From Leuctra nigra (taxonomy: Eukaryota > Arthropoda > Insecta > Plecoptera > Leuctridae), in assembly GCA_934045905.1 (NCBI GenBank), contig OW203765.1, forward strand, positions 26,687,151 to 26,751,150: 64,000 nt of DNA, given 5' to 3'. Position numbers and translations under genes: made by a program. Of the stretch, positions 1 through 64,000 are shown in pieces. Within the stretch, counting starts at the first letter, position 1; the number at the start of each line of letters is the position of its first letter. The notes below the pieces were generated by a model. The model did not search any database, was not told where the DNA came from, and was given only the letters and a program-made list of their open reading frames with translations.

Positions 1-456
1 CGTGCCGCCGACCGAGCCACCAGCCAAGCCAGCCGCGGAGAACATCTCGCAGAGTTCACTGTTGGGGCCGTGCACGAGAAGTCGAGCCCGCCTACAGCCG
101 GCACCGAGCATCAGCGGAACGAGCCTCGCGGGAAGGCCGAGGAACACCGAGCGTCCGCCGCGGGCACCGACAGGAGCGCTCCAGCCGGTACGTCTTACCC
201 GCAGCAGAGCGCGCGCTCAACTGAAGAAATGAAGGATGAAAATCATCGCGAATCCAACCTCTGCGATTGGTCGTCCACTCTCCACCAACGGGAAACCAGA
301 CCAACCCGAAAACGAATAAGAGACCGCGCTGCCAGCAACATCGTCGCAGTCAACCGCCAGAAGATGAAGGAAGTACATCCTTCGAAACGTCGCGAACGGC
401 CCTTATCAGGGCCACCAGCACCTCCAACGGAACAAACCGTCACCACTGCCATGTCA
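1..456 (+). repeat. Penelope-like element, upstream direct repeat (pLTR-like)
   Basis: This block is repeated with offset 2840 at 2841-3296; the two copies match through ATGTCA and diverge immediately after. Penelope-like elements characteristically lie in partial tandem with such pseudo-LTRs. The left limit cannot be seen because the window starts inside the repeat. The start of the polymerase ORF lies within it at 70. In a second frame the same DNA encodes the protein's C-terminal tail, which suggests that another element copy may precede position 1. Confidence 0.85.
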
Positions 457-3072: not shown

Positions 3073-3296
3073 AGGATGAAAATCATCGCGAATCCAACCT
3101 CTGCGATTGGTCGTCCACTCTCCACCAACGGGAAACCAGACCAACCCGAAAACGAATAAGAGACCGCGCTGCCAGCAACATCGTCGCAGTCAACCGCCAG
3201 AAGATGAAGGAAGTACATCCTTCGAAACGTCGCGAACGGCCCTTATCAGGGCCACCAGCACCTCCAACGGAACAAACCGTCACCACTGCCATGTCA
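2841..3296 (+). repeat. Penelope-like element, downstream direct repeat
   Basis: Second copy of the 456-bp repeat at 1-456. It holds the polymerase stop codon at 3072. It runs straight into the AT-rich minisatellite at 3297, so the element's 3' junction is the array itself and no target duplication can be read. Confidence 0.85.
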
Positions 3297-5631: not shown

Positions 5632-5997
5632 ACAAACAATGTTCGTGTCGGAAGGAGTCGATATAGCGGAAGTTCTGAGCGCCACCTCATGGTGGAGATG
5701 GAAGAGCTTCTTGGGGTGGGAATGGCTAAATACCCTGAAGCCCGGTTTATAGTCAACGGGATGATGTACAGAGCAGACGTACATGACGAAACAATGGACA
5801 AACTAAATGAAAGTGTTTCGTGGCTGTGCGAAGAGTTGGGTGCCAAGTTCGTCCCACTAAGCCACGAGTTCCCAAATAATTTCGCATCAGGGGACGGGCT
5901 GCACCTCAACACGGCGGGGGGAGAGAAGCTGGGTAGAATTATTGTAGAATGTATTCAAAAGGAGCTGGGGAATAGTGATAGGGCATCAAAAAACTAG
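5632..5997 (+). pseudogene. 5'-truncated LINE ORF1, SGNH esterase domain
   Basis: The frame opens at the minisatellite junction with TNN, the second half of the SGNH block-III GTNN motif. It continues through ARFIVNG to the catalytic block V, DGLHLN, which supplies Asp and His, and stops at 5997. CR1-clade LINEs often carry such an esterase in ORF1. The nucleophile Ser block and everything upstream are lost, so this is a C-terminal remnant. An internal ATG at 5689 is unlikely to be a true start. Confidence 0.8.
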
Positions 5998-6011
5998 TTG
6001 TAGATGGGGGA

Positions 6012-34200: not shown

Positions 34201-37200
34201 GTACTTTGATTTCATTTTTAAACAAAACCAAAACTCTCTCGCTTAACCAAGTTTGGAGAAAAATAGGCAAAAATAAGCATAAAATAGATACAAAAAGCCA
34301 GGGAATCAGATTTCAATCCACGTTTTGAGAAGAAATTAAGAAATGTTTCCTTTCACGTTAAATTGTATCCCCATAAAAACACTCCGTGTAAAAATACCAG
34401 CCAAGTCTTTTCAACTATAAAAAATTGAAGAAATCTAAAAAATCAGCACTGAAAAGTAGTGATATCAAAAAATGGGCCAAGTCAAAACTTAATTTTAAAA
34501 ACCAAAATATACTTGGCGCATCGTGTATATTAATAATATACGAAGTATATGCCAAAAATCAAATGTACCTAAATATATATAATATACCTATAATGCTCTT
34601 AAAAACGATGCGCCAAGTATATTTTGGTTTTTAAAATTAAGTTTTGACTTGGCCCATATTTTGATATCACTGCTTTTAAGTGCTGATTTTTTAGATTTCT
34701 TCTATTTTTTATAGTTGAAAAGACTTGGCTGGTATTTTTACACGGAGTGTTTTTTTATGGGGATATAACAACTTTTTTTAGTTTATTTAAACAACTTGTA
34801 ACTCATATCGAAGCAACAATGACTAATTCCTTTAAAAAGATCAGCCATTTCCAATTTGGTTACTAAGAAAGTTGCGTTTGGTACCAAAATATGCTTAAAG
34901 TGATATTCCATGAAGAAAAGCGAAAGATTAGTTCCAATCGGTCCAGCAGCTTTCGAGATATGGCATCACTTCCGGTTAGAAAAATGGCGGCTGAAATCAC
35001 TGCCACCTAGAATTTATTTATATAAATGTTTATTGCATCATGATAAGCCTTCTGAATAAGTAGTTAATGTGGTAAGAGGTGATTAATTGCTGGTTCTAAA
35101 TTTTTATGACGTCATTTCCGGTTTCAGTAACAGTACATTTATTTTTAGACTTATTAGACTTTAGATTCATTTTCATACATATGACCGTCCGAATCGTTTG
35201 ACGCTAGTTTCGTTCCGATTGGCTTAGTTGGTTTCGAGATATGACGTCACTTCCGGTTTCAAAATGGCGGCTTCTGGTTGGTTTTATAAAAAGGCACCTC
35301 AGACGCCAAAAGTGCACATGTAGTAAAAATTTCAGATTGATCGGTTTAGCAGTTTAGGCTGTGGCGGTGATAGCGGTGTTTCCTGATATCATCTGAAGAA
35401 GAAGAAGATGAAAGTGATGTAATTTCACGATTTTCAAGTCCTTTTAGCTCGAAAATGGTATAACCTATTGTTGGCTCACTTGGAATATTTAGTGGGGTGG
35501 ACCATAGCTCCAAATTAAAATATTTCTCAACAATGTGAGATTTCCCATTTTTGAGATCCAGTAGGCCGAAAGTGCTATGTTGTTGCTTACAGTAAAACTG
35601 TTTGGTCTGCTCCTCAGTTTATTAGGCATTTACGGTATGTTGAGTGGGTGTAAGTGTACAGTACGACTTGGCTGGGTGGAGCGACCGCTCCACTAGATTT
35701 GAAAGATGGAGAAATAATAACTGTAATTGCATATTGCATCTATAATTTATAAATTATCAAGTTACCCCTCACACCAAATTCAAATCCACTAAACCAATAT
35801 CCACTATCCACTTAGTCCAAATCCACTTGAACTTCAAAATTTAATTTTGAATTGCCTTGACTATCTTCAAATAGAGCTATTACAATCATAAGCCAATTGT
35901 ATTTCAGAGCTTCATTCAAAACAATATTTCATTGGTTAGGCTGGGTTCCCATACTTGGCATCGAATTCGCTTCCGGCTCGCTTCGCTTTCGCAAAATGGC
36001 TACCTTTTAACATAGGAAATCGTCCATGTTTACATTCGCATGTTCGCGTGTTTCGGTTTCGTTAAAGTTGAGCCAATTCTAACTTTGACGAAACCGAAAC
36101 GAAACCGAAACACGCGAACATGGGAATGTAAACATGGACAATTTCTATGCTAAAAGGTAGCCATTTTGCGAAAGCGAAGCGAACCGGAGCGAATTCGATG
36201 CGAAGTATGGGAACCCAGCTTTAGAATTTCAAATTGTCCAACTTGAATTGCAATGAACTTTATTGGTTGTAGTAATATTGGCTGTTGTGGTAATCCATTA
36301 ACCCTAGGGAAAGGGAGATTAGCCCTTTAATTGGACCTTGTATAATCAGTTCGTGAAGTTTCAAATTCATCGTGTCTACGGGTGTATACTTACTATACGA
36401 GCAGCGTCCCAAGTTGAACCAATCTGAGTCACTTTGTAAGAATTGTGTCCTGGGACCTGTTTGTAGCCAACTTGAGGGCCCTGTCCTTGGATGGGTTGTC
36501 CGCCTTGGATGGGTTGTCCGCCTTGTAATTGTTGTCCGAATTGGAAAGGTTGTCTTACTTGAAATGGTTGTACGCCTTGGAAGGGTTGTCCGACTTGAAA
36601 GGGTTGTACGCCTTGGAAGGGTTGTCCAACTTGAAAGGGTTGTACGCCTTGGAAGGGTTGTCCAACTTGAAAGGGTTGTACGCCTTGGAAGGGTTGTCCA
36701 ACTTGAAAGGGTTGTACGCCTTGGAAGGATTGTCCAACTTGAAAGGGTTGTACGCCTTGGAAGGGTTGTCCAACTTGGCCGCCCATACGGAAGTTGTGGC
36801 CCCCTGTTGGTAAATTTTGTTGTGATAGTGCAGCTCTTCATAATATAGTAGATTGGTCATCATCCGTCCCTTTTGATATTTCAGCAGAAAGCAAAGGGTT
36901 GCTTATCACAATTGCCTCCATTGCAGAGGAAAGATTTCCTGGCATTCGTTGTTCTGTTGATAAGAGTATTGTCAACTAATGTAGGTGTAAGTGTAGAATG
37001 AAGTGATAAAGAAGTTAATGGTTATTTCAAAGATTGAATTATGTATAAATTATAATGTACAAATGTACAAATGCAACAAAAAATTAATCAAACGGCAGAA
37101 TTGGAGTAATAGCCTGGGGCTCTATTCACAAAGAAATATTATCTCTCAATAATAGTGAGGGATGTAAGCACAAAAATAGTGCAAAATGTTATACTAATTT

Positions 37201-40179
37201 TTCCTTGAGGAGTCTTATAGGAAATTTTCCGCTCTCCCATAATTTCGATATCCTCAAAAAATCGGGCGGCCATTTTGGGCCCCAGGGCTGTCCAAAGTGC
37301 CAAAAAGTGTGTATTTCAGTGAAATTATTAAACTTTTGTAAATTTATTGTTTTTGAGTAATAAACAATGTGTCAGGAACGTACGATAAAAAAATAAAATT
37401 TCTAAGTCTAACTAAAGTTGTATTTATTTAAGAAATTAAAGATGTCGGCGAGTAAGCTCTAAAATGACCGCCATTTTCAGGGAATTCGTGTTTCAAGGTT
37501 GCAGTTGCTTATGTATGTTCATATTATGGACATTTAACTTAAAAATCGATGGATCACGAAATTAACCCTTTGGGGGGTGGGGGGTGGAGACCTCAAGGTT
37601 TCGATGTGTGTAAAATAATCCATAGTAGATAGAGACTAATAATTTCTTGCACACACTAATAAAACTGTGCTCTGTTCGAAAAAAATCACGAGATCCCAAA
37701 ATTATGCCGCCATCTTCGATGAGACGCGTTTATATTTCGTTATTTTGCGCACAGCAGTTGAAAAATGATGATAAATTTGCTACTTTGCTCATCCCTTGTT
37801 CACTGCAAAGGTATCGTGTCACCGCCTCCTGAACTAAAATTACATGTTAAAATCCCTATCTTGGGACGTTTTATCAACACACAAATGAAGTTTTAGGGAG
37901 AACGGTTGGAGATACAGAGAATATGCAAATTACAAATGTCTTTATTATAATTAGGGCTATATTTTATGTCAAATAAACTTTTTCGTATTGTATAAAGAAC
38001 GTACTGAAATTTATGAAAAAAGAAATATAAGCTCTTTTTATCCAAGATGGCGGCATTATTTTGAGTTCTCGTATTTTTTTTTGAAGAGAGTACATTTTCT
38101 TTATTATGTGCATGGAACCATTTTTATCTAGCTAGTGTGGCCTATTGTATACACATTGAAACCTTTAGGGCTCCACCCCCCACCCCCCAAAGGGTTAATT
38201 TCGTGACCCATAGATTTTTAAGTTCAAAGTCCATAATATGAACCTACATAAGCAATTGCAACCTTGAAACACGAATTCCCTGAAAATGGCGGCCATTTTA
38301 GAGCTTACTCGCCGACATCTTTAATTTCTTGAATAAATACAACTTTGGTTAGACTTAGAATTTTTATTTTTTTATCGTACGTTCTTGACACATCGTTTAT
38401 TATACAAGAACAATTAATTTACAAAAGTTTTATAATTTCACTGAAATACACACTTTTTGGCACTTTGGACAGCCCTGGGGCCCAAAATGGCCGCCCGATT
38501 TTTTGAGGATATCGAAATTATGAAAGAGCGGAAAATTTCCTATACGACTGCCAAAGGAAAAATTAGTATCACATTTTGCACTATTTTTCCAAATGTATGT
38601 GCTAGCAGCCCTCACTATAAGTACTATCTTTTATATTTTATTTCATTTTACATTGTGTTTTTGCTATTAAATTCAACAAAAAATACGTAATGAGCAGATA
38701 ATTCTTCTCGTGAGTCCAGCCCCTGGTCTCTGAGTCAGTCTATTCACGTACACAGTGGCCGGTCCCGGACCGTAGTGTCCCTGTCCCCGACCGATGATAC
38801 CCGGTCCCGGACCCGATTTAAATTCAATTTTGGCCGCATCATACTATTGTAATTCTACTCCCTAGAGTAGTCGACATCTAGTGGAGCGGTCGCTCCACCC
38901 AGCCAAGTCGTACTATACACTCACACTCACTCAACATACCGTAAAATCCTAATAAACTGAGGAGCAGACCAAACACTTTTACTGTAAGCAACAACATAGC
39001 ATTTTCGGCCTACTGGATCTCAAAATTGGGAAATCTCACATTGTTGCGAAATATCTTAATTTTGAGCTATGGCCCACAACATCACTTGTACCTAATTTTG
39101 GAACTATACGTTATGCCGTTTGCGAGCTGGGGGGCCATGAAAACAGTGAAATTACACCACTTTGATCTTTAGATGATGATGATGATGATGATGATTCAGA
39201 GGGTCAGGAAACACCGCAATCACCGCCACAGCCTAAACGGCAAAACCGATCGATCTGAAATTTTTACCACATGTGCACTTTTGGCGTCTGAGGTGCCTTT
39301 TTATAAAACCAACCGGTAGCCGCCATTTTGAAACCGGAAGTGCAGTAATATCTCATAAACGGATGAACCGATTGGGACGAAATTAGCGCCAAACGATTCG
39401 GACAATAATCTATATAAAATATCAATAGTCGAAATAGACATGCACTATTACCGAAACCGGAAATGACGTCATAAAGATGCCAAATCTGACTAAAATCATC
39501 TCTCATAACAATATCTACATTTTCAGAAGGCTTATTATGTTTCATAACATTAATAGATACAAATTTTAGGTGGCAGTGATGTCATCCGCCATTTTGAAAA
39601 CCGGAAGTGATGTCATAACTCGAGAACGTCTGGACCGATTGGAACGAAACTTTCGCTATACTTCATAGCATATTATTTATAGCATACACAGTAACAAGCA
39701 CAACTTCTTAGCAACCAAGTCACACAGGCATATTTTTTAAAGGAATTATAGTCGTTAGTGCCACAATATATATGTTTGAAGTTGTAAGAATGAACTGAAA
39801 AAAGGAGTGATATCCCCATAAAAAAACACTCCGTGTAAAAATACCAGCCAAATCTCTTACTCTAAAAAAACAGAAGAAATCTAAAAATTCAGCACTGAAA
39901 AGTAGTGATATCAAAAAAATTGCCAAGTCAAAACTTTTCAAAAAATACTTGGCGCATCGTTTTTTTAGTGCATTATAGATTAATTATGTATAGATGAGTT
40001 TATTTGATTAACGGCCTACTTCTATACTATTTATATGCTCGATGCGCCAAGTATTTTACTTACATGGATTCCAGCCAGGGCCCGGACCGAACGTGCCAGT
40101 TCCCGGACCGAAGGTGCCAGTTCCCGGATTGATGGTGCCAGTTCCCGAATTGATGGTGCCAGTTCCCGGACCGCCGTTT
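31225..40179 (-). CDS. C-type lectin with PFQ-repeat linker (gene B), 5' end not found
   Basis: Exons on the minus strand: 40179-40064 (Gly/Thr/Pro-rich, GTGTINSGTGTINPG), 36803-36394 (HNFRMGGQVGQ, 36-bp repeats encoding PFQGVQPFQVGQ, then YKQVPGHNSYKVTQIGSTW), 33906-33735 (DCEKDGAHLAVINS to VLG) and 31378-31225 (GGSLEDAGWLGW, QPNN, DDC, DPC, ICELEPR). The last three have the same lengths and phases as in genes A and C except for the repeat expansion. No signal-peptide exon is visible between 40179 and gene A. The acceptor frame of the 40179 exon does not fit the phase-1 entry of its paralogues; an ATG at 40193 is in frame. Reading past the last donor gives a stop at once (AGG TGA). It may be a truncated duplicate, a pseudogene, or alternative 3' exons served by gene A's first exon. 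Confidence 0.68.
31540..31898. other. GC-rich block ending in a G23 run
   Basis: Much more GC-rich than its surroundings (GGGCCCGATCCGGGGGAG and similar), with G23 at 31876-31898. Its minus strand stays open for short stretches but I recognise no protein. It may be the 5' region of a mobile element. Confidence 0.4.
31985..33068 (-). repeat. Dispersed repeat F1, longer minus-strand copy
   Basis: Starts CAAGCGAGCGTAGCGAGCG and ends GCTCGCTCATCAGCGCGTTA, then CGTTTTCCTAAT. About 1.1 kb, with diverged interior modules. Confidence 0.65.
33343..33551 (-). mobile_element. tRNA-derived SINE
   Basis: On the minus strand: A-box TGGCTGAGTGG (33543-33533), B-box GGGTTCGATTCC, then a body with GTGGTTTTCCCTCAGTCG, AATGCTGGGAAGGTACC and GGCCACGACCGCCTCCTTCC. 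This body type is widespread in arthropods. A decayed copy is at 45435-45590. Confidence 0.75.
33907..34180 (-). repeat. 30-bp splice-site array of gene B with a captured exon fragment
   Basis: Minus-strand units GTTGCCAGGTGTATGTTGAG run into the exon acceptor at 33907. At 34093-34035 the array contains GTGTGTGAAAAGGACGGCGC and onward, the first 59 nt of the lectin exon, fused directly to another array unit. Confidence 0.85.
34369..35697 (+). mobile_element. Foldback/Helitron-like element H2
   Basis: Begins CCCCATAAAAACACTCCGTG with two inverted arms (34369-34550 and about 34590-34768). The body holds TGACGTCACTTCCGGTTTC sites. It ends in the hairpin GTGGAGCGACCGCTCCAC followed by TAGAT. Shorter loop than H1. 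Confidence 0.65.
35939..36220. mobile_element. 282-bp MITE, PIF/Harbinger-like
   Basis: Almost the whole element folds back on itself. Ends GCTGGGTTCCCATACTTGGC and GTATGGGAACCCAGC; flanked by TTA at 35936-35938 and 36221-36223, the 3-bp target type of PIF/Harbinger. Confidence 0.7.
36540..36778 (-). repeat. 36-bp coding minisatellite in gene B
   Basis: About 6-7 units encoding PFQGVQPFQVGQ in the linker exon of gene B. The period of 36 keeps the frame. Substitutions are mostly between units, and the outer units are the most diverged. Confidence 0.88.
37113..38726. mobile_element. 1.6-kb long-arm foldback element
   Basis: Arms of about 600 bp (37113-about 37735 and about 38040-38726) are inverted copies; landmarks are CGGGCGGCCATTTTGGGCCC, GGCACTTTGGACAGCCCTGG and GCCGCCATCTT. 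No transposase. It lies between gene B's linker exons. Confidence 0.75.
38755..38812 (-). pseudogene. Gly/Pro-rich exon-like fragment of gene B
   Basis: The minus strand reads GPGPGIIGRGQGHYGPGPAT, like gene A exon 3, but no convincing splice sites flank it. It is next to DNA homologous to gene A intron 3, so it may be a decayed or extra linker exon. Confidence 0.4.
38877..40057 (-). mobile_element. Foldback/Helitron-like element H3
   Basis: The 3' end on the minus strand is GTGGAGCGACCGCTCCACTAG, like H1 and H2. The 5' foldback has one full arm (39813-39973) and a truncated outer arm ending next to the splice donor of gene B's 40064 exon. The body carries CCGGAAGTGATGTCA-type sites. Confidence 0.6.
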
Positions 40180-40847: not shown

Positions 40848-43800
40848 TCACTGCCTAAAAAACAAAACAAATAAAAAATAGTATCGCTAATAACTAGTGG
40901 TGTTTCATTCGGACCTCACCTGGGCTCGAACTCGCAGATGTGTCCGTACAATACTGTGCACGGATCGTCCCAGATCGTATTCCACCAATGATAGTTGAGA
41001 CAGTCGTCAGTGCCAAGGTTATTCGGTTGACCTCCCTGCCACCCCAACCATCCAGCATCATCCAGACTGCCACCTGGTAACAGAGCTGCTTATTTCCACA
41101 CCTTCATTCAAGCAGACTTTAAAACGAACATAGGTACATTAGAGAATAAGTACGAAGATTTAAAAATAAAATAACCATCCATCGTTTAACCATCTCTCCA
41201 GACACTTAACGCCTGTAGGACAAAATATAACTAATATACCATTCCAAGCTATGAAATTATTTTCATTGAACAGTTCTAAAGACTCGTACAAAGCCATATT
41301 TTATTAACAATTGCATTGGTAAAATATATAAATAAAGGATTTAAAAAACTCTTCAAGGCCACGCTCACTACCCAGCCGTCTTAATAGAGGATATACCGAT
41401 TTCGGACACATAATTCTTTCATCCGCGCCTAAAACTCGAAATCGAAGAAAATAACCGACCAATGCCATTTTTTAATTGATAAAATATGTCTGTAATCCTA
41501 CGCCTTTTTGCCTTTATAACTAAATTTGGCATTTCTTTTTGACCTTGTGCAAATCGTATGCAGCCTATCCCACCGGTGGTGGCAGCAATTGTTTCACATA
41601 AGTCTTAAATGTCGAAGTTCCTCGAAATACCGGGCAACGCCGGACCGTTCATGGGCTACATATCACCCGGGCAACGCCAGAGTGACATATAGTGTTCATG
41701 AGTATAAAATCGAACTATTTTCTAAGCACTCCTAAAGAGGTTTATTCGTTCACTGATTTTCTAGACTTTCTGAACTTTTTCTGAACTTATGAACTCACCT
41801 AGCACTGTGATGAATTTCCCGTGGGTCCCTGTCTCCCGGGCTCCGATCCAGACGTGGTTTCTGTCCAGAGAACCCGTGGCAGTTGGATTCTCCTTCAACA
41901 GCACATTCAACGCAGCCGCCTCAGCAGCAGAGTTGATGACAGCCAGATGTGCGCCGTCGTTTTCACACACCTGGCAACATCGCAATGTTATATTGTAGTA
42001 CATCTGGCAACGTAGCATTCACTCATATGACGCACTGCATACTTAAAACTTGAACAATGATCGCTAAAGAATCTACCAGAATAAATCTTTGTTCAAATCT
42101 CCACAATAGACTTAGTATGTAAAGAGATAAAAACAAAAATCATTTGAACATCAGAATTAAACTTTGAATTGACTCAAATGGCTGAATTGCCATGATATTA
42201 TTATTATTTATTGTAATTTTCCCGAATTTTCCTGTAAAAACAGGATGGCTAGTGTATAGGGTGACAATGGTCCCCTCTTTAGCCGAGTACAGAGTTTCGA
42301 TTTCAAATTAGTTGCAGTGACATGATACAATATAAAGGTGCAAAGAAGGTACACAGCACAGAGTTCATAAATTGTTCAAGGCGGTAATGTTTATAAATGA
42401 TATGAATAAGAACAGAACATGAGATTTAGTGGATGGAGAACGCACACACTGTTATAATCTCCAATTAACCCTAGGGTAAGGGAGATTATGAGCTTGTAAT
42501 TAATCGTGTCTATACAGGTGTAGGGTCACATTCTAAAGAAGCCACCCAAGGGTCACTAGCTCGCATTGGCAAGCAAGCTGCAGTTCACAGATGATTGGTC
42601 TACCCTCCTGCAATAGAGAGGGATTTGATCTGCATCTTTCAAATCTGCAATAGATTTGATATGCGTTTGCAAGTATCAGCTGCTCTACTGGACTTGGAAC
42701 TGAAGCATAAAGAAGGCAGTGATGAAAATTTAGGATACATTTTTCAAATATTTCAATATTATAGAATAAAATGTCCTTCAAATTTCAATAACTTTTGAAA
42801 ATAACGACAGATTAGTCTTCAAATTGGCAAAAATACCTAAAATGATGGTCCCAATGACCATGCGAAGTTATAAGTTAATCGGTCAATAGGCACGAGTTCA
42901 AAATTTAAAAATCACATGAAACATGGTTTTAAATTTTAACCAATTAGAGGATTTGGCTGAAACTTCGTAAGATTGGGGACAATGTTAGTTGCAATGACTT
43001 TTGCAAAATTTCAAATTGATCGGTCCAACCAATCAAGAGATTTAAAAAAAAAACAATTACAGGATCTTCTTCAAAAACGATCCCAGAGACCGCAAAGATT
43101 ACGTCAAGGCAAAAAAGACACACAGACATAAGAGTAACGTGGTGACGCTCGCTACACTCGCTCAATGATATTATCTTTGCCGAAAGTTAGGCATTTGGCT
43201 TGTTTGGATTCTAGACTGCAAAGAAAAGAACATGGCTATACGTACTATGCGGGCCGCGTCCCAAGTGGATCCAATCTGAGTCACTTTGTAGGAATTGTGT
43301 CCGGGGACTTGTTTGTATCCGGCTGGCGGGCCCTGTCCTGGAGGGCCCTGTCCTGGGAAGGGTCCGGGGCCCATGCGGAGGTTGTAGTTCTGGCCCACTG
43401 GTGGTAAATCATGTAGTTAGAATAGAGAATAGAAATCGCATGGCTCTGCGTATCGTAAATCGTAAATAATTTAAATTGAATTTTAGCAGCATCATGCGAT
43501 TGTAGTTCTTCTCTCTAAACTAGTCGACGTACTAACCTGGAGGCCAGCCAGGTCCCGGACCGAAGTTACCCAGCCCAGGACCCATGTTACCCGGTCCCGG
43601 ACCCATCTGTCCCGGGGTAAAGTTGAAGTTGAAGTTTGGGTTCCCTGTAGATAAAAAAAGAACTCGATGAGAAAAGAGTGGTGGGAGAAATTAATGTTTC
43701 TTTATGGTTCCGTAAATGTACTTAGGTATTGACTGTTGAACTTTTTGAAATAGCAGCTGTCTGCTGATGGTATCGAAATGGGGACCCGTGTAACTGGATC

Positions 43801-52300: not shown

Positions 52301-55208
52301 TAAGTGCCATAATTTTACTAATTTTCGGGCACTAAACGTCTGTAGGACAAGTAAATCTAATAAACAATTACAAGCTATGGAATTAATTTCATTGAACTGT
52401 TCTGAATACTCGGACAAAGTCTTATTTTGTTAACAATTACATTGGTAATAAAATAATGCAACGTACGAGTCTTCTGAACTGTTCAATGTAAATAAATTAA
52501 TATTTTGGCAAAGACTGTTAGTTTAGACGTTTAGTACCTGAGTGAAAATTAGTAAAAATATTGCACTAAACGTCTGTAGGACAAAATAACGCTAATACGC
52601 CATTCCAAACGATTTAAAAAAAAATTGTTTAGAAGACTCGTTCGTTGGCTTATTTTAATAACAATTACATTGGTAAAAGATATTGATAGAAATCTATTAT
52701 TTTATTTTAGCTATTTCCATTGGTTTTCAGTTCACAGAGTGCTGACATGGCTGAGTCTACTGTGAGCAACATGTCTTCTTGGATCGTTGCCTCAGAGATT
52801 CTGGACAAGAGTATGACGGAGCAATACGCATTCAGCATGTTCACGGCAACAAGCTTGACCTTCGGCGCGGGGATCGGCAGCTTCCCGACCACGTCAGAGG
52901 ACCAGTGGATCGTGATCATCGTGGGGACGCTCGGCCATCTACTGCTATTCTACATTATGGGTAATAACATTGGTTTTATTGTCTATGTTAGAACCTTTTA
53001 AGCATAACTTTAAACTGTTCTCACTGAGGAATCGATCATGATCGAAAAGCTCAATTGTAATCGTAAATGTGTCGAAGATTTGAATCTAAATCCAAATCTC
53101 GATTGATCGAATTGATTGATTGAATCAATCCACTAATGCATTTTCATTCATTTTTAGGACATTTTGTATACATTCGACGATTCAAGTTTCCTTGAATTCC
53201 AACCCTTTCAAGGGGGTTGAATTCAAGACTTGGATCGTCTTAATGAAAACATTGAAGCATTTATCACATTTCCCAGTCTTGAATTCAGGACATCTCTTCA
53301 ACATTTTCAATAATTAGATCATGTTCTATTTTCCTTCAAGTCTTGAAATACTTCAACCAATTATTAATTTCACCGCAACTTGAATCAACAATAAACATTA
53401 AATCGTCTAAATAATCTTTCAAGTTTCCTTGAAATCAAGGGTTGAATTCAACTTCTTCAAGGAAACTTGAACCGTGTATTCAGGCTTTAAGGATAAATAT
53501 TCAAGAATAATACCTGTATTCAAGGGTGATTTTTACGTATCGCCTGGGCTATTTCGTCGTTCATTCTTCTCCAGCCAACATCATGTAGTACATCTTCTCC
53601 AGCCAACATCATGCTCATCTTCTTCTCCAGCCAACATCATGTAGTACATCTTCTCCAGCCAACATCATGCTCATCTTCTTCTCCAGCCAACATCATGCTC
53701 ATCTTCTTCTCCAGCCAACATCATGTAGTACATCTTCTCCAGCCAACATCATGCTCATCTTCTTCTCCAGCCAACATCATGTACATCTTCTTCTCTAGCC
53801 AACATCATGTACATCTTCTCCTCCAGCCAACATCATGTACATCTTCTCCTCCAGCCAACATCATGTACATCTTCTTCTCCAGCCAACATCATGTACATCT
53901 TCTTCTCCAGCCAACATCAGGTACATCTTCTCCTCCAGCCAACATCATGTACATCTTCTTCTCCAGCCAACATCATGTACATCTTCTTCTCCAGCCAACA
54001 TCATGTACATCTTCTCCTCCAGCCAACATCATGTACATCTTCTTCTCCAGCCAACATCATGTACATCTTCTCCTCCAGCCAACATCATGTAGTACATCTT
54101 CTCCAGCCAACATCATGCTCATCTTCTTCTCCAGCCAACATCATGTACATCTTCTTCTCCAGCAAACATCATGTACCTGTCTAAGATCCAACACGCTGCG
54201 GAGACGAAGTATTGGGAGATGTTGTCGGAGGTCCAGAAGTTCATGCGCCAGAAGAAACTGCCGGCCGATCTGCAGAAGAAAGTCGTCACTTATTACAACT
54301 TCAAGTTCCAGAAGAGTTACTTCGTGGATTATCACATCATGAAGTCCATCTCTCCGCAGCTGAAAGAAGTAAGTATCTCGAAACAGATATATGTTTTGTA
54401 TAGCGACACATTTGGTCCAGAAGGTGTTTAAACATCAAATAATAAGAGAGAAGATGTTATACCGGGTAAACGATTAAAACCTCACAACAATCTTTGGACC
54501 GACTCCGGTATAGTCAAAAAATTAAAAATATAAAATACACGGAATATTTCGAAGATGTTTCTATCTTCTTCATCAGGTGCACACTGACGTAAAATCTACC
54601 TCGACCGCCAAACCCCAGATAAAACAGCTGATGTAAACAAACCAACCGCCAGCTCAATCACAACACAGAAAACAGCTAACCGGCTAATAAACACACCGTG
54701 ACACAAAAACCGAACGCCATGATTCACTCTATGAACGCTAAAACTCAATTACCTACTTTTCTTCAAGACAAAATAATAACATCAAAATAACCTCACTGCA
54801 GAAGAAATACAAGTACACTACGACTTTAAATAATATTATGCTTCTATTATGTATTATAATTTGTTATTCTTTTATAATATTTAGATTAAGCTAGTTGGTT
54901 ACATGGAGTATCAACAGACCGATAATTGAAATAAATTGAATTGAATAAACGGAACCCTCTACATGAGAATATATCAAGAGTGTGTACCTATCTTCTTGCA
55001 GGACATAATTCTGCACTGCTGCCGCAAACTGATCGACAACGTGTCGATCTTTCACAACTTCCCTGCGGAACTGCTGGACCGCCTCTCCATGTGCCTCCAC
55101 GTCGAGTACTTCCTCTCCGACGACGTCATCGTCCAGGCGCAGGAGCCCGGAGACTCCATGTTCTTCGTCAAGTCCGGGACAGTCGCGCTCTACACGGACG
55201 GCAAAGAG
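49314..55208 (+). CDS. Divergent HCN-like / cyclic-nucleotide-binding channel, seven exons, 3' end beyond window
   Basis: Exons by GT-AG and phase: 49314-49570, 50261-50494, 51015-51189, 51286-51407, 52731-52960, 54163-54368, 55002-55208; 477 residues in the window. The N-terminal domain ends in the family signature FPYMIHPFSKLRIFWEII. Exon 2 encodes S1-S2, exon 3 S3-S4, exon 4 S5. Exon 5 encodes the pore helix, filter and S6. Exon 6 is the C-linker (AAETKYWEMLSEV, FQKSYF). Exon 7 is the start of the cyclic-nucleotide-binding roll (GDSMFFVKSGTVALYTDGKE). The filter reads GAGIGSFP (308-315), without the GYG of HCN or the GET-type filter of CNG channels. S4 keeps few charges (K206, R209, R212). 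Ion selectivity and voltage dependence are therefore open. The rest of the binding domain must lie past the 58-bp array. Confidence 0.88.
49612..50122. mobile_element. 511-bp MITE, PIF/Harbinger-like
   Basis: Inverted ends AGCTGGGTCCACATAGGCCG, continuing about 48 bp, match at 50122 reversed. TAA is present on both sides (49609-49611 and 50123-50125). It is in channel intron 1. The ends resemble the MITE at 35939. Confidence 0.8.
50525..50685. mobile_element. 161-bp hairpin MITE
   Basis: Ends GGAGGCCAATTCTTGAG and CTCAAGAATTGGCCTCC. The arms of about 65 bp are nearly perfect. In channel intron 2. Confidence 0.75.
51408..52110. other. Channel intron 4, 5' part
   Basis: AT-rich; 51840-52110 has diverged F1-type modules (TGAAATTTTGCACACACAC). 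Nothing else recognised. Confidence 0.45.
52128..52695. repeat. Foldback plus tandem fragment of the AGGACAAAATA repeat family
   Basis: 52185-52455 is a palindrome with centre near 52318; both arms carry TGAACTGTTCTGAATACTCG and its complement. 52560-52690 is a further partial copy. Members also lie at 19395 and 41215. The last copy ends about 35 bp from the acceptor of exon 5. Confidence 0.65.
52961..53562. other. Channel intron 5, 5' part
   Basis: Unique-looking AT-rich sequence with imperfect TCAAG-rich repeats (about 53170-53480). No gene. Confidence 0.5.
53563..54162 (+). repeat. 28-bp minisatellite of the exon 6 acceptor, about 22 copies
   Basis: The unit is CATCTTCTTCTCCAGCCAAC followed by ATCATGTA. 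It contains a pyrimidine tract, CAG and the first exon bases; the final copy is the real acceptor of exon 6 (CTCCAG at 54157-54162). A few units are shorter (25 bp). Confidence 0.92.
54369..55001. other. Channel intron 6
   Basis: 54540-54720 resembles a retroelement 3' end on the minus strand (CTGATGAAGAAGATAGAAAC). The rest is AT-rich with a TTCTTGCAG acceptor at its end. Confidence 0.45.
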
Positions 55209-58200
55209 GTGGGTGAATCCAGACCAATGTGTCGGGACAGTCGCGCTCTACACGGACGGCAAATAGGTGGGTGGATCCAGACCAATGTGTCGGGACAGTC
55301 GCGCTCTACACGGACGGCAAAGAGGTGGGTGGATCCAGACCAATGTGTCGGGACAGTCGCGCTCTACACGGACGGCAAAGAGGTGGGTGGATCCAGACCA
55401 ATGTGTCGGGACAGTCGCGCTCTACACGGACGGCAAAGAAGTGGGTGGATCCAGACCAATGTGTCGGGACAGTCGCGCTCTGCACGGACGGCAAAGAGGT
55501 GGGTGGATCCAGACCAATGTGTCGGGACAGTCGCGCTCTACACGGACGGCAAAGAGGTGGGTGGATCCAGACCAATGTGTCGGGACAGTCGCGCTCTACA
55601 CGGACGGCAAAGAGGTGGGTGGATCCAGACCAATGTGTCGGGACAGTCGCGCACTACACGGACGGCAAAGAGGTGGGTGGATCCAGACCAATGTGTCGGG
55701 ACAGTCGCGCTCTACACGGACGGCAAAGAGGTGGGTGGATCCAGACCAATGTGTCGGGACAGTCGCGCTCTACACGGACGGCAAAGAGGTGGGTGGATCC
55801 AGACCAATGTGTCGGGACAGTCGCGCTCTACACGGACGGCAAAGAGGTGGGTGGATCCAGACCAATGTGTCGGGACAGTCGCGCTCTACACGGACGGCAT
55901 AGAGGTGGGTGGATCCAGACCAATGTGTCGGGACAGTCGCGCTCTACACGGACGGCAAAGAGGTGGGTGGATCCAGACCAATGTGTCGGGACAGTCGCGC
56001 TCTACACGGACGGCAAAGAGGTGGGTGGATCCAGACCAATGTGTCGGGACAGTCGCGCTCTACACGGACGGCAAAGAGGTGGGTGGATCCAGACCAATGT
56101 GTCGGGACAGTCGCGCTCTACACGGTCGGCAAAGAGGTGGGTGGATCCAGACCAATGTGTCGGGACAGTCGCGCTCTACACGGACGGCAAAGAGGTGGGT
56201 GGATCCAGACCAATGTGTCGGGACAGTCGCGCTCTACACGGACGGCAAAGAGGTGGGTGGATCCAGACCAATGTGTCGGGACAGTCCTCTACACGGACGG
56301 CAAAGAGGTGGGTGGAACCAGACCAATGTGTCGGTACAGTCGCGCTCTACACGGACGGCAAAGAGGTGGGTGGATCCAGACCAATGTGTCGAGACAGTCG
56401 CGCTCTACACGGACGGCAAAGAGGTGGGTGGATCCAGACCAATGTGTCGGCACAGTCGCGCTCTACACGGACGGCAAAGAGGTGGGTGGATCCAGACCAA
56501 TGTGTCGGGACAATCGCGCTCTACACGGACGGCAAAGAGGTGGGTGGATCCAGACCAATGTGTCGGCACAGTCGCGCGCTACACGGACGGCAAAGAAGTG
56601 GGTGGATCCAGACCAATGTGTCGGGACAATCGCGCTCTACACGGACGGGAAAGAGGTGGGTGGAACCAGACCAATGTGTAGGGACAGTCGCGCTCTACAC
56701 GGACGGCAAAGAGGTGGGTGGATCCAGACCAATGTGTCGGGACAGTCGCGCTCTACCCGGACGGCAAAGAGGTGGGTGGATCCAGACCAATGTGTCGGGA
56801 CAGTCGCGCTCTACACGGACGGCAAAGAGGTGGGTGGATCCAGACCAATGTGTCGGGACAGTCGCGCTCTACACGTACGGGAAAGAGGTGGGTGGATCCA
56901 GACCAATGTGTCGGGACAGTCGCGCTCTACACGGACGGCAAAGAGGTGGGTGGATCCAGACCAATGTGTCGGGACAGTCGCGCTCTACACGGACGGCAAA
57001 GAGGTGGGTGGATCCAGACCAATGTGTCGGGACAGTCGCGCTCTACACGGACGGCAAAGAGGTGGGTGGGTCCAGACCAATGTGTCGGGACTGTCGCGCT
57101 CTACACGGACGGGAAAGAGGTGGGTGGATCCAGACCAATGTGTCGGGACAGTCGCGCTCTACACGGACGGCAAAGAGGTGGGTGGATCCAGACCAATGTG
57201 TCGGCACAGTCGCGCTCTACACGGACGGCAAAGAGGTGGGTGGGTCCAAACCAATGTGTCGGGACAGTCGCGCTCTACACGGACGGCAAAGAGGTGGGTG
57301 GAACTAGACCAATGTGTCGGGACAGTCGCGCTCTACACGGACGGCAAAGAGGTGGGTGGATCCAGACCAATGTGTCGGGACAGTCGCGCTCTACACGGAC
57401 GGCAAAGAGGTGGGTGGATCCAGACCAATGTGTCGGGACAGTCGCGCTCTACACGGACGGCAAAGAGGTGGGTGGGTCCAGACCAATGTGTCGGGACAGT
57501 CCTCTACACGGACGGCAAAGAGGTGGGTGGATCCAGACCAATGTGTCGGGACAGTCGCGCTCTACACGGACGGGAAAGAGGTGGGTGGATCCAGACCAAT
57601 GTGTCGGGACAGTCCTCTACACGGACGGCAAAGAGGTGGGTGGATCCAGACCAATGTGTCGGGACAGTCGCGCTCTACACGGACGGCATAGAGGTGGGTG
57701 GATCCAGACCAATGTGTCGGGACAGTCGCGCTCTACACGGACGGGAAAGAGGTGGGTGGATCCAGACCAATGTGTCGGGACAGTCGCGCTCTACACGGAC
57801 GGCAAAGAGGTGGGTGGATCCAGACCAATGTGTCGGCACAGTCGCGCTCTACACGGACGGCAAAGAGGTGGGTGGATCCAGACCAATGTGTCGGGACAGT
57901 CGCGCTCTACACGGACGGCAAAGAGGTGGGTGGATCCAGACCAATGTGTCGGGACAGTCGCGCTCTACACGGACGGCAAAGAGGTGGGTGGATCCAGACC
58001 AATGTGTCGGGACAGTCGCGCTCTACACGGACGGCAAAGAGGTGGGTGGATCCAGACCAATGTGTCGGCACAGTCGCGCTCTACACGGACGGCAAAGAGG
58101 TGGGTGGATCCAGACCAATGTGTCGGGACAGTCGCGCTCTACACGGACGGCAAAGAGGTGGGTGGATCCAGACCAATGTGTCGGGACAGTCGCGCTCTAC

Positions 58201-61200
58201 ACGGACGGCAAAGAGGTGGGTGGATCCAGACCAATGTGTCGGCACAGTCGCGCTCTACAAGGACGGCAAAGAAGTGGGTGGATCCAGACCAATGTGTCGG
58301 GACAGTCGCGCTCTACACGGACGGCAAAGAGGTGGGTGGAACCAGACCAATGTGTCGGGACAGTCGCGCTCTACACGGACGGCAAAGAGGTGGGTGGATC
58401 CAGACCAATGTGTAGGGACAGTCGCGCTCTACACGGACGGCAAAGAGGTGGGTGGATCCAGACCAATGTGTCGGGACAGTCGCGCTCTACACGGACGGCA
58501 AAGAGGTGGGTGGATCCAGACCAATGTGTCGGGACAGTCGCGCTCTACACGGACGGCAAAGAGGTGGGTGGATCCAGACCAATGTGTCGGGACAGTCGCG
58601 CTCTACACGGACGGCAAAGAGGTGGGTGGATCCAGACCAATGTGTCGGGACAGTCGCGCTCTACACGGACGGCAAAGAGGTGGGTGGATCCAGACCAATG
58701 TGTCGGGACAGTCGCGCTCTACACGGACGGCAAAGAGGTGGGTGGATCCAGACCAATGTGTAGGGACAGTCGCGCTCTACACGGACGGGAAAGAGGTGGG
58801 TGGATCCAGACCAATGTGTCGGGACAATCGCGCTCTACACGGACGGCAAAGAGGTGGGTGGATCCAGACCAATGTGTCGGGACAGTCGCGCTCTACACGG
58901 ACGGCAAAGAGGTGGGTGGAACTAGACCAATGTGTCGGGACAGTCGCGCTCTACACGGACGGCAAAGAGGTGGGTGGATCCAGACCAATGTGTCGGGACA
59001 GTCGCGCTCTACACGGACGGCAAAGAGGTGGGTGGATCCAGACCAATGTGTCGGGACAGTCGCGCTCTACACGGACGGCAAAGAGGTGGGTGGGTCCAGA
59101 CCAATGTGTCGGGACAGTCCTCTACACGGACGGCAAAGAGGTGGGTGGATCCAGACCAATGTGTCGGGACAGTCCTCTACACGGACGGCAAAGAGGTGGG
59201 TGGATCCAGACCAATGTGTCGGGACAGTCGCGCTCTACACGGACGGGAAAGAGGTGGGTGGATCCAGACCAATGTGTCGGGACAGTCCTCTACACGGACG
59301 GCAAAGAGGTGGGTGGATCCAGACCAATGTGTCGGGACAGTCGCGCTCTACACGGACGGCAAAGAGGTAGGTGAATTCAGACCAATGTGTCGGGACAGTC
59401 GCTCTACACGGACGGCAAAGAGGTGGGTGGATCCAGACCAATGTGTCGGGACAGTCGCGCTCTACACGGACGGCAAAGAGGTGGGTGGATCCAGACCAAT
59501 GTGTCGGGACAGTCGCGCTCTACACGGACGGCAAAGAGGTGGGTGGATCCAGACCAATGTGTCGGGACAGTCGCGCTCTACACGGACGGCAAAGAGGTGG
59601 GTGGATCCAGACCAATGTGTCGGGACAGTCGCGCTCTACCCGGACGGCAAAGAGGTGGGTGGATCCAGACCAATGTGTCGGTACAGTCGTGCTCTACACG
59701 GACGGCAAAGAGGTGGGTGGATCCAGACCAATGTGTCGGGACAGTCGCGCTCTACACGGACGGCAAAGAGGTGGGTGGATCCAGACCAATGTGTCGGGAC
59801 AGTCGCGCTCTACACGGACGGCAAAGAGGTGGGTGGATCCAGACCAATGTGTCGGGACTGTCGCGCTCTACACGGACGGCAAAGAGGTGGGTGGATCCAG
59901 ACCAATGTGTCGGGACAGTCGCGCTCTACACGGACGGCAAAGAGGTGGGTGGATCCAGACCAATGTGTCGGGACAGTCGCGCTCTACACGGACGGCAAAG
60001 AGGTGGGTGGATCCAGACCAATGTGTCGGGACAGTCGCGCTCTACACGGACGGCAAAGAGGTGGGTGGATCCAGACCAATGTGTCGGTACAGTCGCGCTC
60101 TACACGGACGGCAAAGAGGTGGGTGGATCCAGACCAATGTGTCGGTACAGTCGCGCTCTACACGGACGGCAAAGAGGTGGGTGGATCCAGACCAATGTGT
60201 CGGGACAGTCGCTCTACACGGACGGCAAAGAGGTGGGTGGATCCAGACCAATGTGTCGGGACAGTCGCGCTCTACCCGGACGGCAAAGAGGTGGGTGGAT
60301 CCAGACCAATGTGTCGGGACAGTCGCGCTCTACACGGACGGCAAAGAGGTGGGTGGATCCAGACCAATGTGTCGGGACAGTCGCGCTCTACACGGACGGC
60401 AAAGAGGTGGGTGGATCCAGACCAATGTGTCGGGACAGTCGCGCTCTACACGGACGGCAAAGAGGTGGGTGGATCCAAACCAATGTGTCGGGACAGTCGC
60501 GCTCTACCCGGACGGCAAAGAGGTGGGTGGATCCAGACCAATGTGTCGGTACAGTCGCGCTCTACACGGACGGCAAAGAGGTGGGTGGATCCAGACCAAT
60601 GTGTCGGGACAGTCGCGCTCTACACGGACGGCAAAGAGGTGGGTGGATCCAGACCAATGTGTCGGGACAGTCGCGCTCTACCCGGACGGCAAAGAGGTGG
60701 GTGGGTCCAGACCAATGTGTCGGGACAGTCGCGCTCTACACGGACGGCAAAGAGGTGGGTGGAACCAGACCAATGTGTCGGTACAGTCGCGCTCTACACG
60801 GACGGCAAAGAGGTGGGTGGATCCAGACCAATGTGTCGGTACAGTCGCGCTCTACACGGACGGCAAAGAGGTGGGTGGATCCAGACCAATGTGTCGGGAC
60901 AGTCGCGCTCTACACGGACGGCAAAGAGGTGGGTGGATCCAGACCAATGTGTCGGGACAGTCGCGCTCTACCCGGACGGCAAAGAGGTGGGTGGATCCAG
61001 ACCAATGTGTCGGTACAGTCGCGCTCTACACGGACGGCAAAGAGGTGGGTGGATCCAGACCAATGTGTCGGGACAGTCGCGCTCTACACGGACGGCAAAG
61101 AGGTGGGTGGATCCAGACCAATGTGTCGGGACAGTCGCGCTCTACCCGGACGGCAAAGAGGTGGGTGGATCCAGACCAATGTGTCGGGACAGTCGCGCTC

Positions 61201-64000
61201 TACACGGACGGCAAAGAGGTGGGTGGATCCAGACCAATGTTTCGGGACAGTCGCGCTCTACACGGACGGCAAAGAGGTGGGTGGATCCAGACCAATGTGT
61301 CGGCACAGTCGCGCTCTACACGGACAGCAAAGAGGTGGGTGGATCCAGACCAATGTGTCGGGACAGTCGCGCTCTACACGGACGGCAAAGAGGTGGGTGG
61401 AACCAGACCAATGTGTCGGGACAGTCGCCCTCTACACGGACGGCAAAGAGGTGGGTGGATCCAGACCAATGTGTCGGGACAGTCGCGCTCTACACGGACG
61501 GCAAAGAGGTGGGTGGATCCAGACCAATGTGTCGGTACAGTCGCGCTCTACACGGACGGCAAAGAGGTGGGTGGATCCAGACCAATGTGTCGGTACAGTC
61601 GCGCTCTACACGGACGGCAAAGAGGTGGGTGGATCCAGACCAATGTGTCGGGACAGTCGCTCTACACGGACGGCAAAGAGGTGGGTGGATCCAGACCAAT
61701 GTGTCGGGACAGTCGCGCTCTACCCGGACGGCAAAGAGGTGGGTGGATCCAGACCAATGTGTCGGGACAGTCGCGCTCTACACGGACGGCAAAGAGGTGG
61801 GTGGATCCAGACCAATGTGTCGGGACAGTCGCGCTCTACACGGACGGCAAAGAGGTGGGTGGATCCAGACCAATGTGTCGGGACAGTCGCGCTCTACACG
61901 GACGGCAAAGAGGTGGGTGGATCCAAACCAATGTGTCGGGACAGTCGCGCTCTACCCGGACGGCAAAGAGGTGGGTGGATCCAGACCAATGTGTCGGTAC
62001 AGTCGCGCTCTACACGGACGGCAAAGAGGTGGGTGGATCCAGACCAATGTGTCGGGACAGTCGCGCTCTACACGGACGGCAAAGAGGTGGGTGGATCCAG
62101 ACCAATGTGTCGGGACAGTCGCGCTCTACCCGGACGGCAAAGAGGTGGGTGGGTCCAGACCAATGTGTCGGGACAGTCGCGCTCTACACGGACGGCAAAG
62201 AGGTGGGTGGAACCAGACCAATGTGTCGGTACAGTCGCGCTCTACACGGACGGCAAAGAGGTGGGTGGATCCAGACCAATGTGTCGGTACAGTCGCGCTC
62301 TACACGGACGGCAAAGAGGTGGGTGGATCCAGACCAATGTGTCGGGACAGTCGCGCTCTACACGGACGGCAAAGAGGTGGGTGGATCCAGACCAATGTGT
62401 CGGGACAGTCGCGCTCTACCCGGACGGCAAAGAGGTGGGTGGATCCAGACCAATGTGTCGGTACAGTCGCGCTCTACACGGACGGCAAAGAGGTGGGTGG
62501 ATCCAGACCAATGTGTCGGGACAGTCGCGCTCTACACGGACGGCAAAGAGGTGGGTGGATCCAGACCAATGTGTCGGGACAGTCGCGCTCTACCCGGACG
62601 GCAAAGAGGTGGGTGGATCCAGACCAATGTGTCGGGACAGTCGCGCTCTACACGGACGGCAAAGAGGTGGGTGGATCCAGACCAATGTTTCGGGACAGTC
62701 GCGCTCTACACGGACGGCAAAGAGGTGGGTGGATCCAGACCAATGTGTCGGCACAGTCGCGCTCTACACGGACAGCAAAGAGGTGGGTGGATCCAGACCA
62801 ATGTGTCGGGACAGTCGCGCTCTACACGGACGGCAAAGAGGTGGGTGGATCCAGACCAATGTGTCGGGACAGTCGCGCTCTACACGGACGGCAAAGAGGT
62901 GGGTGGATCCAGACCAATGTGTCGGGACAGTCGCGCTCTACACGGACGGCATAGAGGTGGGTGGATCCAGACCAATGTGTCGGGACAATCGCGCTCTACA
63001 CGGACGGCAAAGAGGTGGGTGGATCCAGACCAATGTGTCGGGACAGTCGCGCTCTACACGGACGGCAAAGAGGTGGGTGGATCCAGACCAATGTGTCGGG
63101 ACAGTCGCGCTCTACACGGACGGCAAAGAGGTGGGTGGATCCAGACCAATGTGTCGGCACAGTCGCGCTCTACACGGACGGCAAAGAGGTGGGTGGATCC
63201 AGACCAATGTGTCGGGACAGTCGCGCTCTACACGGACGGCAAAGAGGTGGGTGGATCCAGACCAATGTGTCGGGACAGTCGCGCTCTACACGGACGGCAA
63301 AGAGGTGGGTGGATCCAGACCAATGTGTCGGGACAGTCGCGCTCTACACGGACGGCAAAGAGGTGGGTGGATCCAGACCAATGTGTCGGGACAGTCGCGC
63401 TCTACACGGACGGCAAAGAGGTGGGAGGATCCAGACCAATGTGTCGGGACAGTCGCGCTCTACACGGACGGCAAAGAGGTGGGTGGATCCAGACCAATGT
63501 GTCGGGACAGTCGCGCTCTACCCGGACGGCAAAGAGGTGGGTGGATCCAGACCAATGTGTCGGGACAGTCGCGCTCTACACGGACGGCAAAGAGGTGGGT
63601 GGATCCAGACTAATGTGTCGGGACAGTCGCGCTCTACACGGACGGCTAAGAGGTGGGTGGATCCAGACCAATGTGTCGGGACAGTCGCGCTCTACACGGA
63701 CGGCAAAGAGGTGGGTGGATCCAGACCAATGTGTCGGGACAGTCGCGCTCTACACGGACGGCAAAGAGGTGGGTGGAACCAGACCAATGTGTCGGTACAG
63801 TCGCGCTCTACACGGACGGCAAAGAGGTGGGTGGATCCAGACCAATGTGTCGGGACAGTCGCGCTCTACACGGACGGCAAAGAGGTGGGTGGATCCAGAC
63901 CAATGTGTCGGGACAGTCGCGCTCTACACGGACGGCAAAGAGGTGGGTGGAACCAGACCAATGTGTCGGTACAGTCGCGCTCTACACGGACGGCAAAGAG
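55176..64000 (+). repeat. 58-bp minisatellite derived from channel exon 7 and its 5' splice site, about 150 copies
   Basis: The unit starts GGGACAGTCGCGCTCTACAC and continues GGACGGCAAAGAGGTGGGTG and GATCCAGACCAATGTGTC. The first 33 bp are the last exon bases (GTVALYTDGKE); GAG|GTGGGT is the donor; the rest is intron. The first unit is the real exon end. Variants include 54-bp units lacking four bases near CGCG, 56-bp units, TACCCGG for TACACGG and GGAACC for GGATCC. The array runs off the window. Because 58 is not a multiple of three and the unit has no stop, all three forward frames stay open for long stretches. Confidence 0.97.
59990..62845 (+). repeat. 1448-bp higher-order repeat, two copies
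   Basis: Private variants recur at a constant offset of 1448: the 56-bp unit (60208/61656), TTCGGG (61241/62689) and CGGACAGC (61321/62769). 1448 is 25 units minus 2 bp. The match ends about 61395/62845, where GGAACC and GGATCC differ. Confidence 0.85.

Follow-up and report, generated by a model that had tools for sequence, protein, structure and literature searches.

Why should an exon run, without a break, into well over a hundred near-identical copies of its own 5′ splice site, and how does splicing cope with them? The question is raised by a channel gene of the insect Leuctra nigra, in a window (the whole stretch of 64 000 nucleotides analysed) that corresponds to C4:26687151-26751150 of a 536-Mb genome in 144 contigs. 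We consider it likely that the array is a minisatellite of the kind called a mirage, arising by duplication of the exon edge, expanded by exchange, homogenised between this locus and a paralogue on contig C2, and read by the spliceosome at its outermost site. The features are collected in Table 1.

Table 1. Gene features and splice-boundary arrays. Positions are window coordinates unless a contig is named; those above 64000 lie in the adjoining contig sequence. Unit lengths (bp) are in parentheses and a slash marks the exon-intron junction.
Feature	Position	Strand	Remarks
Pore exon of HCN-like channel, without array	52777..52961 (approximate limits, by eye)	+	blastn against C2 paralogue, reading frame, Tandem Repeats Finder
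28-bp x 21.9 array repeating the exon-6 3′ splice site	53564..54176	+	Tandem Repeats Finder
Exon 6 (C-linker)	54163..54368	+	Start inside last 28-bp unit
Exon 7 (first part of cyclic-nucleotide-binding domain)	55002..55208	+	Phase-0 end, GAG/GTGGGT
58-bp array of exon-7 ends with donors	55175..64000	+	Reaches 65363
Intron 7 inside window	55209..64000	+	End at 65842
Exon 8	65843-65973	+	
58-bp array of C2 paralogue	C2:10815910-10823257		
Boundary arrays, C4 channel			Exon-7 donor (58), exon-6 acceptor (28)
Boundary arrays, C2 channel			Exon-7 donor (58), pore-exon acceptor (152, at least 7.4 copies, 200 N inside)
Boundary arrays, C2 ionotropic-receptor-like gene			Two acceptors (115, 153), one donor (153)
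Boundary array, C2 serpin-like gene			Acceptor (140)
Boundary arrays, C10 channel			Exon-7 donor (102), exon-8 acceptor (149), pore-exon acceptor (139)
Boundary array, C9 channel			Exon-8 acceptor (75), cut by locus end; by eye
Boundary array, C3 glutamate-receptor gene			Acceptor (134-146)

Exons 6 and 7, translated jointly, match the C-linker and cyclic-nucleotide-binding domain (CNBD) of Ih/HCN channels, the best PDB entry being 2ptm (E = 4.1e-19, query residues 12-132). The Pfam cNMP_binding match (E = 1.5e-5) reaches 25.4 bits, below the gathering score of 27.5, with the query stopping inside the domain. A search of the protein database with the joined exons returned 1428 candidates and none at E <= 0.001; close animal relatives seem to be missing from the database. 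Within the genome itself the same query gave 19 matches, on C4, C2, C10, C6 (two places), C3 and C9, together with a weak one on C2. Seven exon-7 matches (one in the C4 gene, six at paralogous loci) reach no further than query residue 138-139, which is the exon end, and four exon-8 matches start at residues 134-137. The weak match (C2:30112083, E = 3.3e-4) spans residues 107-179 and crosses the exon-7 end unbroken, so that locus is without this intron. On these alignments the exon-7 end at 55208 is conserved in seven loci, not in every relative. A reading made earlier from the sequence alone (hereafter the sequence-only reading) had placed the end of exon 7 at this position, which is backed both by the next exon and by the six paralogous loci. 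The pore motif in both the C4 and the C2 gene (the latter at about 7970-8067 of L015) was read by eye as GAGIG. HCN channels carry CIGYG in the pore, and ion selectivity may differ where GAGIG takes its place.

Within the window the array is detected by Tandem Repeats Finder with a period of 58, 152.6 copies, 97% matches and a score of 16770, which bears out the earlier estimate of about 150 copies of an exon end with its donor. The minimum size of 8.8 kb proposed with it holds for the window; with the adjoining contig sequence added the array has 176.1 copies and a full length of ~10.2 kb. The unit comprises the last 34 bp of exon 7 (55175-55208) and 24 bp of intron, so that its length of 58 bp and its donor had been read correctly and the exonic part, given as 33 bp, had not. 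Splitting the array yields 176 pieces, comprising 167 full units, eight of 52-56 bp and one of 58 bp that is out of register. Seventy of the 167 full units are identical to the consensus and the mean divergence is 1.3%, while the donor GT (unit positions 35-36) is invariant in all 167, and the earlier claim that the units carry the donor is supported. The array is far beyond chance. A block of ~25 units is duplicated inside it, which shows past turnover only. The outermost copy runs continuously into the functional exon 7. Inspection of the flanks revealed a 5-bp microhomology, CGGGA, at both breakpoints: the exonic start of the unit is CGGGA, and in the intron past the last unit the same five bases are present before the sequence departs from that of the unit.

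Tandem arrays may be created, collapsed or expanded during assembly, and the 152-bp array on C2 contains 200 N, perhaps a sign that repeats of this sort are hard to assemble; the copy number may be inexact. That a short locus has been turned into an array in this way is nevertheless highly improbable. The unit variants are ordered (41 and 22 distinct full-length types at C4 and C2), the flanks are clean on both sides, and the variants, the duplicated block and the second, independent locus all make an artefact unlikely.

The gene carries another array, at the 3′ splice site of exon 6. Its unit is divided equally between intron (14 bp, ending TTCTTCTCCAG) and exon 6 (14 bp), and the last copy continues into the exon. 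The start of exon 6 thus falls among repeated 3′ splice sites and the end of exon 7 among repeated 5′ splice sites. At exon 6 of the C2 paralogue the acceptor is single-copy, so of the two genes only that on C4 has the 28-bp array. The acceptor array, the copy of the donor array on a second chromosome and the recurrence in other genes had all been missed by the sequence-only reading.

The array of the C2 paralogue contains 126.7 copies of the 58-bp unit, with a consensus identical to that of C4, a donor GT that is invariant in 126 of 126 full units, and internal periodicities of 22 and 11 units. The genes around the arrays are much less alike. Across exon 6, exon 7 upstream of the array and exon 8 the two are identical at 454 of 504 nt (dS 0.27, dN 0.07; dS 0.38 for exon 7 alone), and the introns flanking the arrays share only matches of 11-15 bp and cannot be aligned. 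If these 58 bp had accumulated changes at the mean rate of the exons, they would be without any difference with a probability of 0.002; at the rate of exon 7 the figure is 3e-5. Ten variant types, out of 35 at C4 and 20 at C2, are common to both arrays where 4.0 would be expected (P 0.0014), an expectation that assumes uniform mutation, which need not hold. Five unit types are common to both, the consensus included. These data are best explained by exchange between the two chromosomes or by a recent copying of the array. A lone 34-bp relic of the unit lies at C2:10823907-10823940 (L016 8007-8040), ~650 bp past the end of the C2 array.

Arrays that are far more alike than their surroundings might also be expected if the 58-bp array had been brought to both genes by a mobile or satellite repeat and its resemblance to the exon were secondary. 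We regard this as very unlikely. In both genes the array starts in register within exon 7 and repeats its last 34 bp, which agrees with the earlier proposal that the exon seeded the array. A DNA search of the genome with the unit gave at least 60 matches, and all those listed are on C2; this is a lower bound, since two of three candidates were scored, common words were skipped and the window's own array is absent from the result. Nor does it seem that the arrays are neutral rubbish in decaying pseudogenes, which is extremely improbable. Some of the HCN-like matches on C6 and C3 contain in-frame stops, and for the C4 and C2 genes there is nothing direct of this kind. Exons 6 to 8 of the C4 gene are open and have splice sites, and a last coding exon with a terminal stop codon was located by eye ~1.8 kb beyond exon 8. 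The ratio dN/dS between the C4 and C2 exons is ~0.25, suggesting that both channel genes are under constraint, which lends indirect support to a normal mRNA in spite of the arrays.

Arrays of the same design are found elsewhere in the genome. The total found is 13 boundary arrays, which belong to seven genes and are spread over five contigs; four are at donors and nine at acceptors, and one (C9) was assigned by eye. The gene names derive from Pfam and PDB matches for the channel, from Pfam or PDB for the C2 receptor gene and the C3 gene, and from inspection for the serpin; neighbouring exons were assigned to one gene by eye. The C3 array showed up within the 126 matches to Lig_chan, as a set of six partial ones at even spacing. 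AG junctions recur in the acceptor arrays. Homologous boundaries carry different units, of 58 and 102 bp at the end of exon 7, 152 and 139 bp at the start of the pore exon, and 149 and 75 bp at the start of exon 8. The exon contributes at least half of the unit in all ten that were measured (34/58, 14/28, 69/115, 116/153, 128/140, 120/149, 125/152, 106/139, 117/153 and 92/102). Unit length is divisible by three in four of the 13 arrays (153, 153, 102 and 75), as chance predicts.

The association with splice boundaries exceeds chance around the C2 array, where five of nine tandem repeats in 60 kb cross a boundary against an expectation of 0.6-0.9 (P 8e-5 to 6e-4); the nine are the 11 rows scoring at least 150 minus the 58-bp array and a TCT microsatellite, and the 26-40 boundaries were estimated by eye. 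In 104 kb from the window and beyond, one of nine other arrays crosses a boundary (P 0.07-0.13), and the 30 P450 loci that rank highest among 98 matches show no sure splice-boundary array. Together these last two results indicate that the process is not uniform, and any estimate of frequency rests on the regions and gene families chosen. The channel-like loci on C6 (two), C3 and C2:30112083 have no boundary array in the parts examined. Runs of ~200 N occur at two channel loci: on C6 the run falls inside exon 8 or immediately behind it (L026, minus strand), and on C2 it occupies L015 6634-6833 in the 152-bp array; whether gaps or withheld stretches, such runs at channel exons may hide further boundary arrays. 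On our own reading, two P450 minisatellites (L062 1068-1514 and L054 2265-2521) start within the last coding codons, cover the stop codon and carry on into the 3′ side; the outward growth seen at exon edges recurs here where a coding sequence ends. Of other P450 arrays, that in L065 is inside the coding sequence and that in L042 is of ambiguous position.

These properties suggest the following origin for the C4 array. A tandem duplication between two CGGGA sequences, one lying in exon 7 at 34 bp from its end and the other in the intron at 24 bp from the junction, would have copied the exon edge together with its donor. Unequal exchange and block duplication would then have expanded the array to ~176 units; the likeness of the C4 and C2 arrays may have been kept up by exchange between them. 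The spliceosome probably uses the first donor, and the surplus copies, being on the intron side, would leave with the intron, so the protein is unchanged as long as this donor is chosen. The first donor is expected to be favoured by exon definition because it is closest to the exon's own acceptor, giving an exon of 207 nt as against 265, 323 and so on. By the same logic use of the last acceptor would allow the 28-bp array before exon 6 to persist. Against this, the 176 donors have nearly the same sequence, so that there is no reason in the sequence itself for the first to win.

It might instead be supposed that the array works in splicing, with alternative donors adding in-frame multiples of 174 nt (58 amino acids) to the CNBD, or with the array tuning or delaying the removal of intron 7. 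The 58-bp unit is open in all three forward frames, and the frame of exon 7 remains open for 1467 nt into the C4 array and for 6171 nt into that of C2; the 102-bp donor array on C10 is open for 414 nt. Some retained forms would thus be translatable, which counts against a purely passive array. In addition, arrays stand at one or both ends of the intron separating exons 7 and 8 in four of the seven HCN-like loci with an exon-7 match (C4, C2, C10 and C9), a count in which C9 was assigned by eye and the other three loci are partly covered. Yet 6% of shuffled units are also free of stops in all frames, making the openness of the unit weak evidence, and the complete arrays have stops in every frame (6, 9 and 3 at C4; 5, 1 and 1 at C2). 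The idea that selection maintains an open reading frame across the array was rejected as weak. For the acceptor arrays, use of the nearest internal acceptor leads to a stop within the stretch examined in seven of the eight tested, the ninth being cut off; the 149-bp array stayed open, and the further sites of the 28-bp array were mixed. Taken with the lack of any bias of unit length toward multiples of three, the stops indicate that extra units are probably not meant to enter the mRNA. A role of the array in splicing is therefore unlikely. Some in-frame inclusion of 58-bp units may occur, by use of every third donor with 58 extra amino acids. Four units folded as RNA are no more stable than shuffled sequences (z 0.11). 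Donor competition, suggested earlier as a consequence of the array, gains no support from these results, and the titration of U1 and the isoforms longer by 58n nt that had been suggested with it would be speculation.

The reading that we prefer, of an exon edge duplicated and expanded with the outermost site in use, has precedent. In the available sections of PMC3087553 repeats of this design, at both kinds of boundary, are described in lancelets and named mirages. Those of Adh3 have units of 10-72 bp and show somatic instability, and among the globins BflGb6 has units of 150-160 bp, six and three in two haplotypes, and BflGb9 a unit of 157 bp (PMC3087553). Troponin C and PGBD5, the latter with units of 60 and 108 bp, provide further examples, according to the sections available of PMC3902484, and the results of the two studies, to the same extent, suggest that regular splicing is undisturbed (PMC3087553; PMC3902484). 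The present arrays resemble those described there in having a tandem unit across an exon-intron boundary, at both 5′ and 3′ splice sites, with the signals present in many units. They differ in the insect host, in size (176 and 127 units against the six and three reported for the BflGb6 haplotypes), and in the occurrence of the same array on two chromosomes with an identical consensus. The genome has 136 matches to the odorant receptor family 7tm_6. To our knowledge this family is confined to insects. The range of mirages is thus not limited here to cephalochordates; it is the range that differs, not the design.

Other systems are less close. The variable internal tandem repeats of human segmental duplications are likewise minisatellites that alter the structure of recent paralogues, but in the sections available of PMC2812944 the coding ones are mostly in frame and repeated splice sites are not described. 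The model of intron gain by Rogers, based on AG/GT proto-splice sites (as cited in the available part of PMC3087553), also involves tandem duplication with splice signals in each copy; here, by contrast, an existing boundary is multiplied, without a demonstrated new exon or intron. Accounts of intronic minisatellites and splicing in C. elegans (PMC4039745) and of earthworm metallothionein (PMC12783039) do not describe repeated splice sites in their accessible sections. Among the matches listed in a search of the open-licence literature, so far as their text was accessible, there was no mirage outside lancelets. As far as that literature shows, the kind of array is already known, and what is new is the insect setting, the size and an array common to two chromosomes.

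The array is unusually large and points to a process of wider reach in this insect genome. We propose tentatively, with a little less than even confidence, that insect genomes can hold a genome-wide process by which exon edges become minisatellites, that splicing tolerates these because it uses only the site closest to its partner on the other side of the exon, and that arrays at paralogous edges exchange sequence across chromosomes. If so, mirages would be a general animal phenomenon, and provide a test of exon definition with up to 176 competing sites. The choice of the spliceosome among equal neighbouring sites has mostly been studied with few, artificial sites. The C4 gene offers a natural test, with ~176 near-identical donors at one exon and ~22 acceptors at the exon before it, both in a gene under constraint, and with the single-copy acceptor of the C2 paralogue as a control for the acceptor array. 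Exclusive use of the outermost site would be a very strong demonstration of exon definition by proximity. The recurrence in seven genes suggests that mirages are a wider route of intron growth; they may in addition contribute to intron gain and cause errors in gene annotation.

Several other features of the window and the genome were noted. Positions 1-3296 of the window are retroelement-like, with direct repeats of ~456 bp at the ends (1-456 and 2841-3296). By eye this element has a Penelope-like look with a GIY-YIG-type end; the one frame scanned gave no Pfam match. It is followed by an AT-rich 42-bp array of 55.6 copies (3296-5630) and then by a LINE-like frame with reverse transcriptase and endonuclease domains (5982-8903). 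Short GC-rich repeats of 18/36 and 21 bp, with a coding look, are embedded in AT-rich DNA at 36485-36777, 38759-38813, 40074-40173 and 43551-43606. In five places in the genome (C1:65908024, C4:15705483, C4:27403791, C10:901233 and C11:17828206) a partial match to the C-terminal part of an odorant receptor is followed exactly 357 bp downstream by a fuller one, a pattern that suggests a dispersed repeated element carrying a receptor exon.
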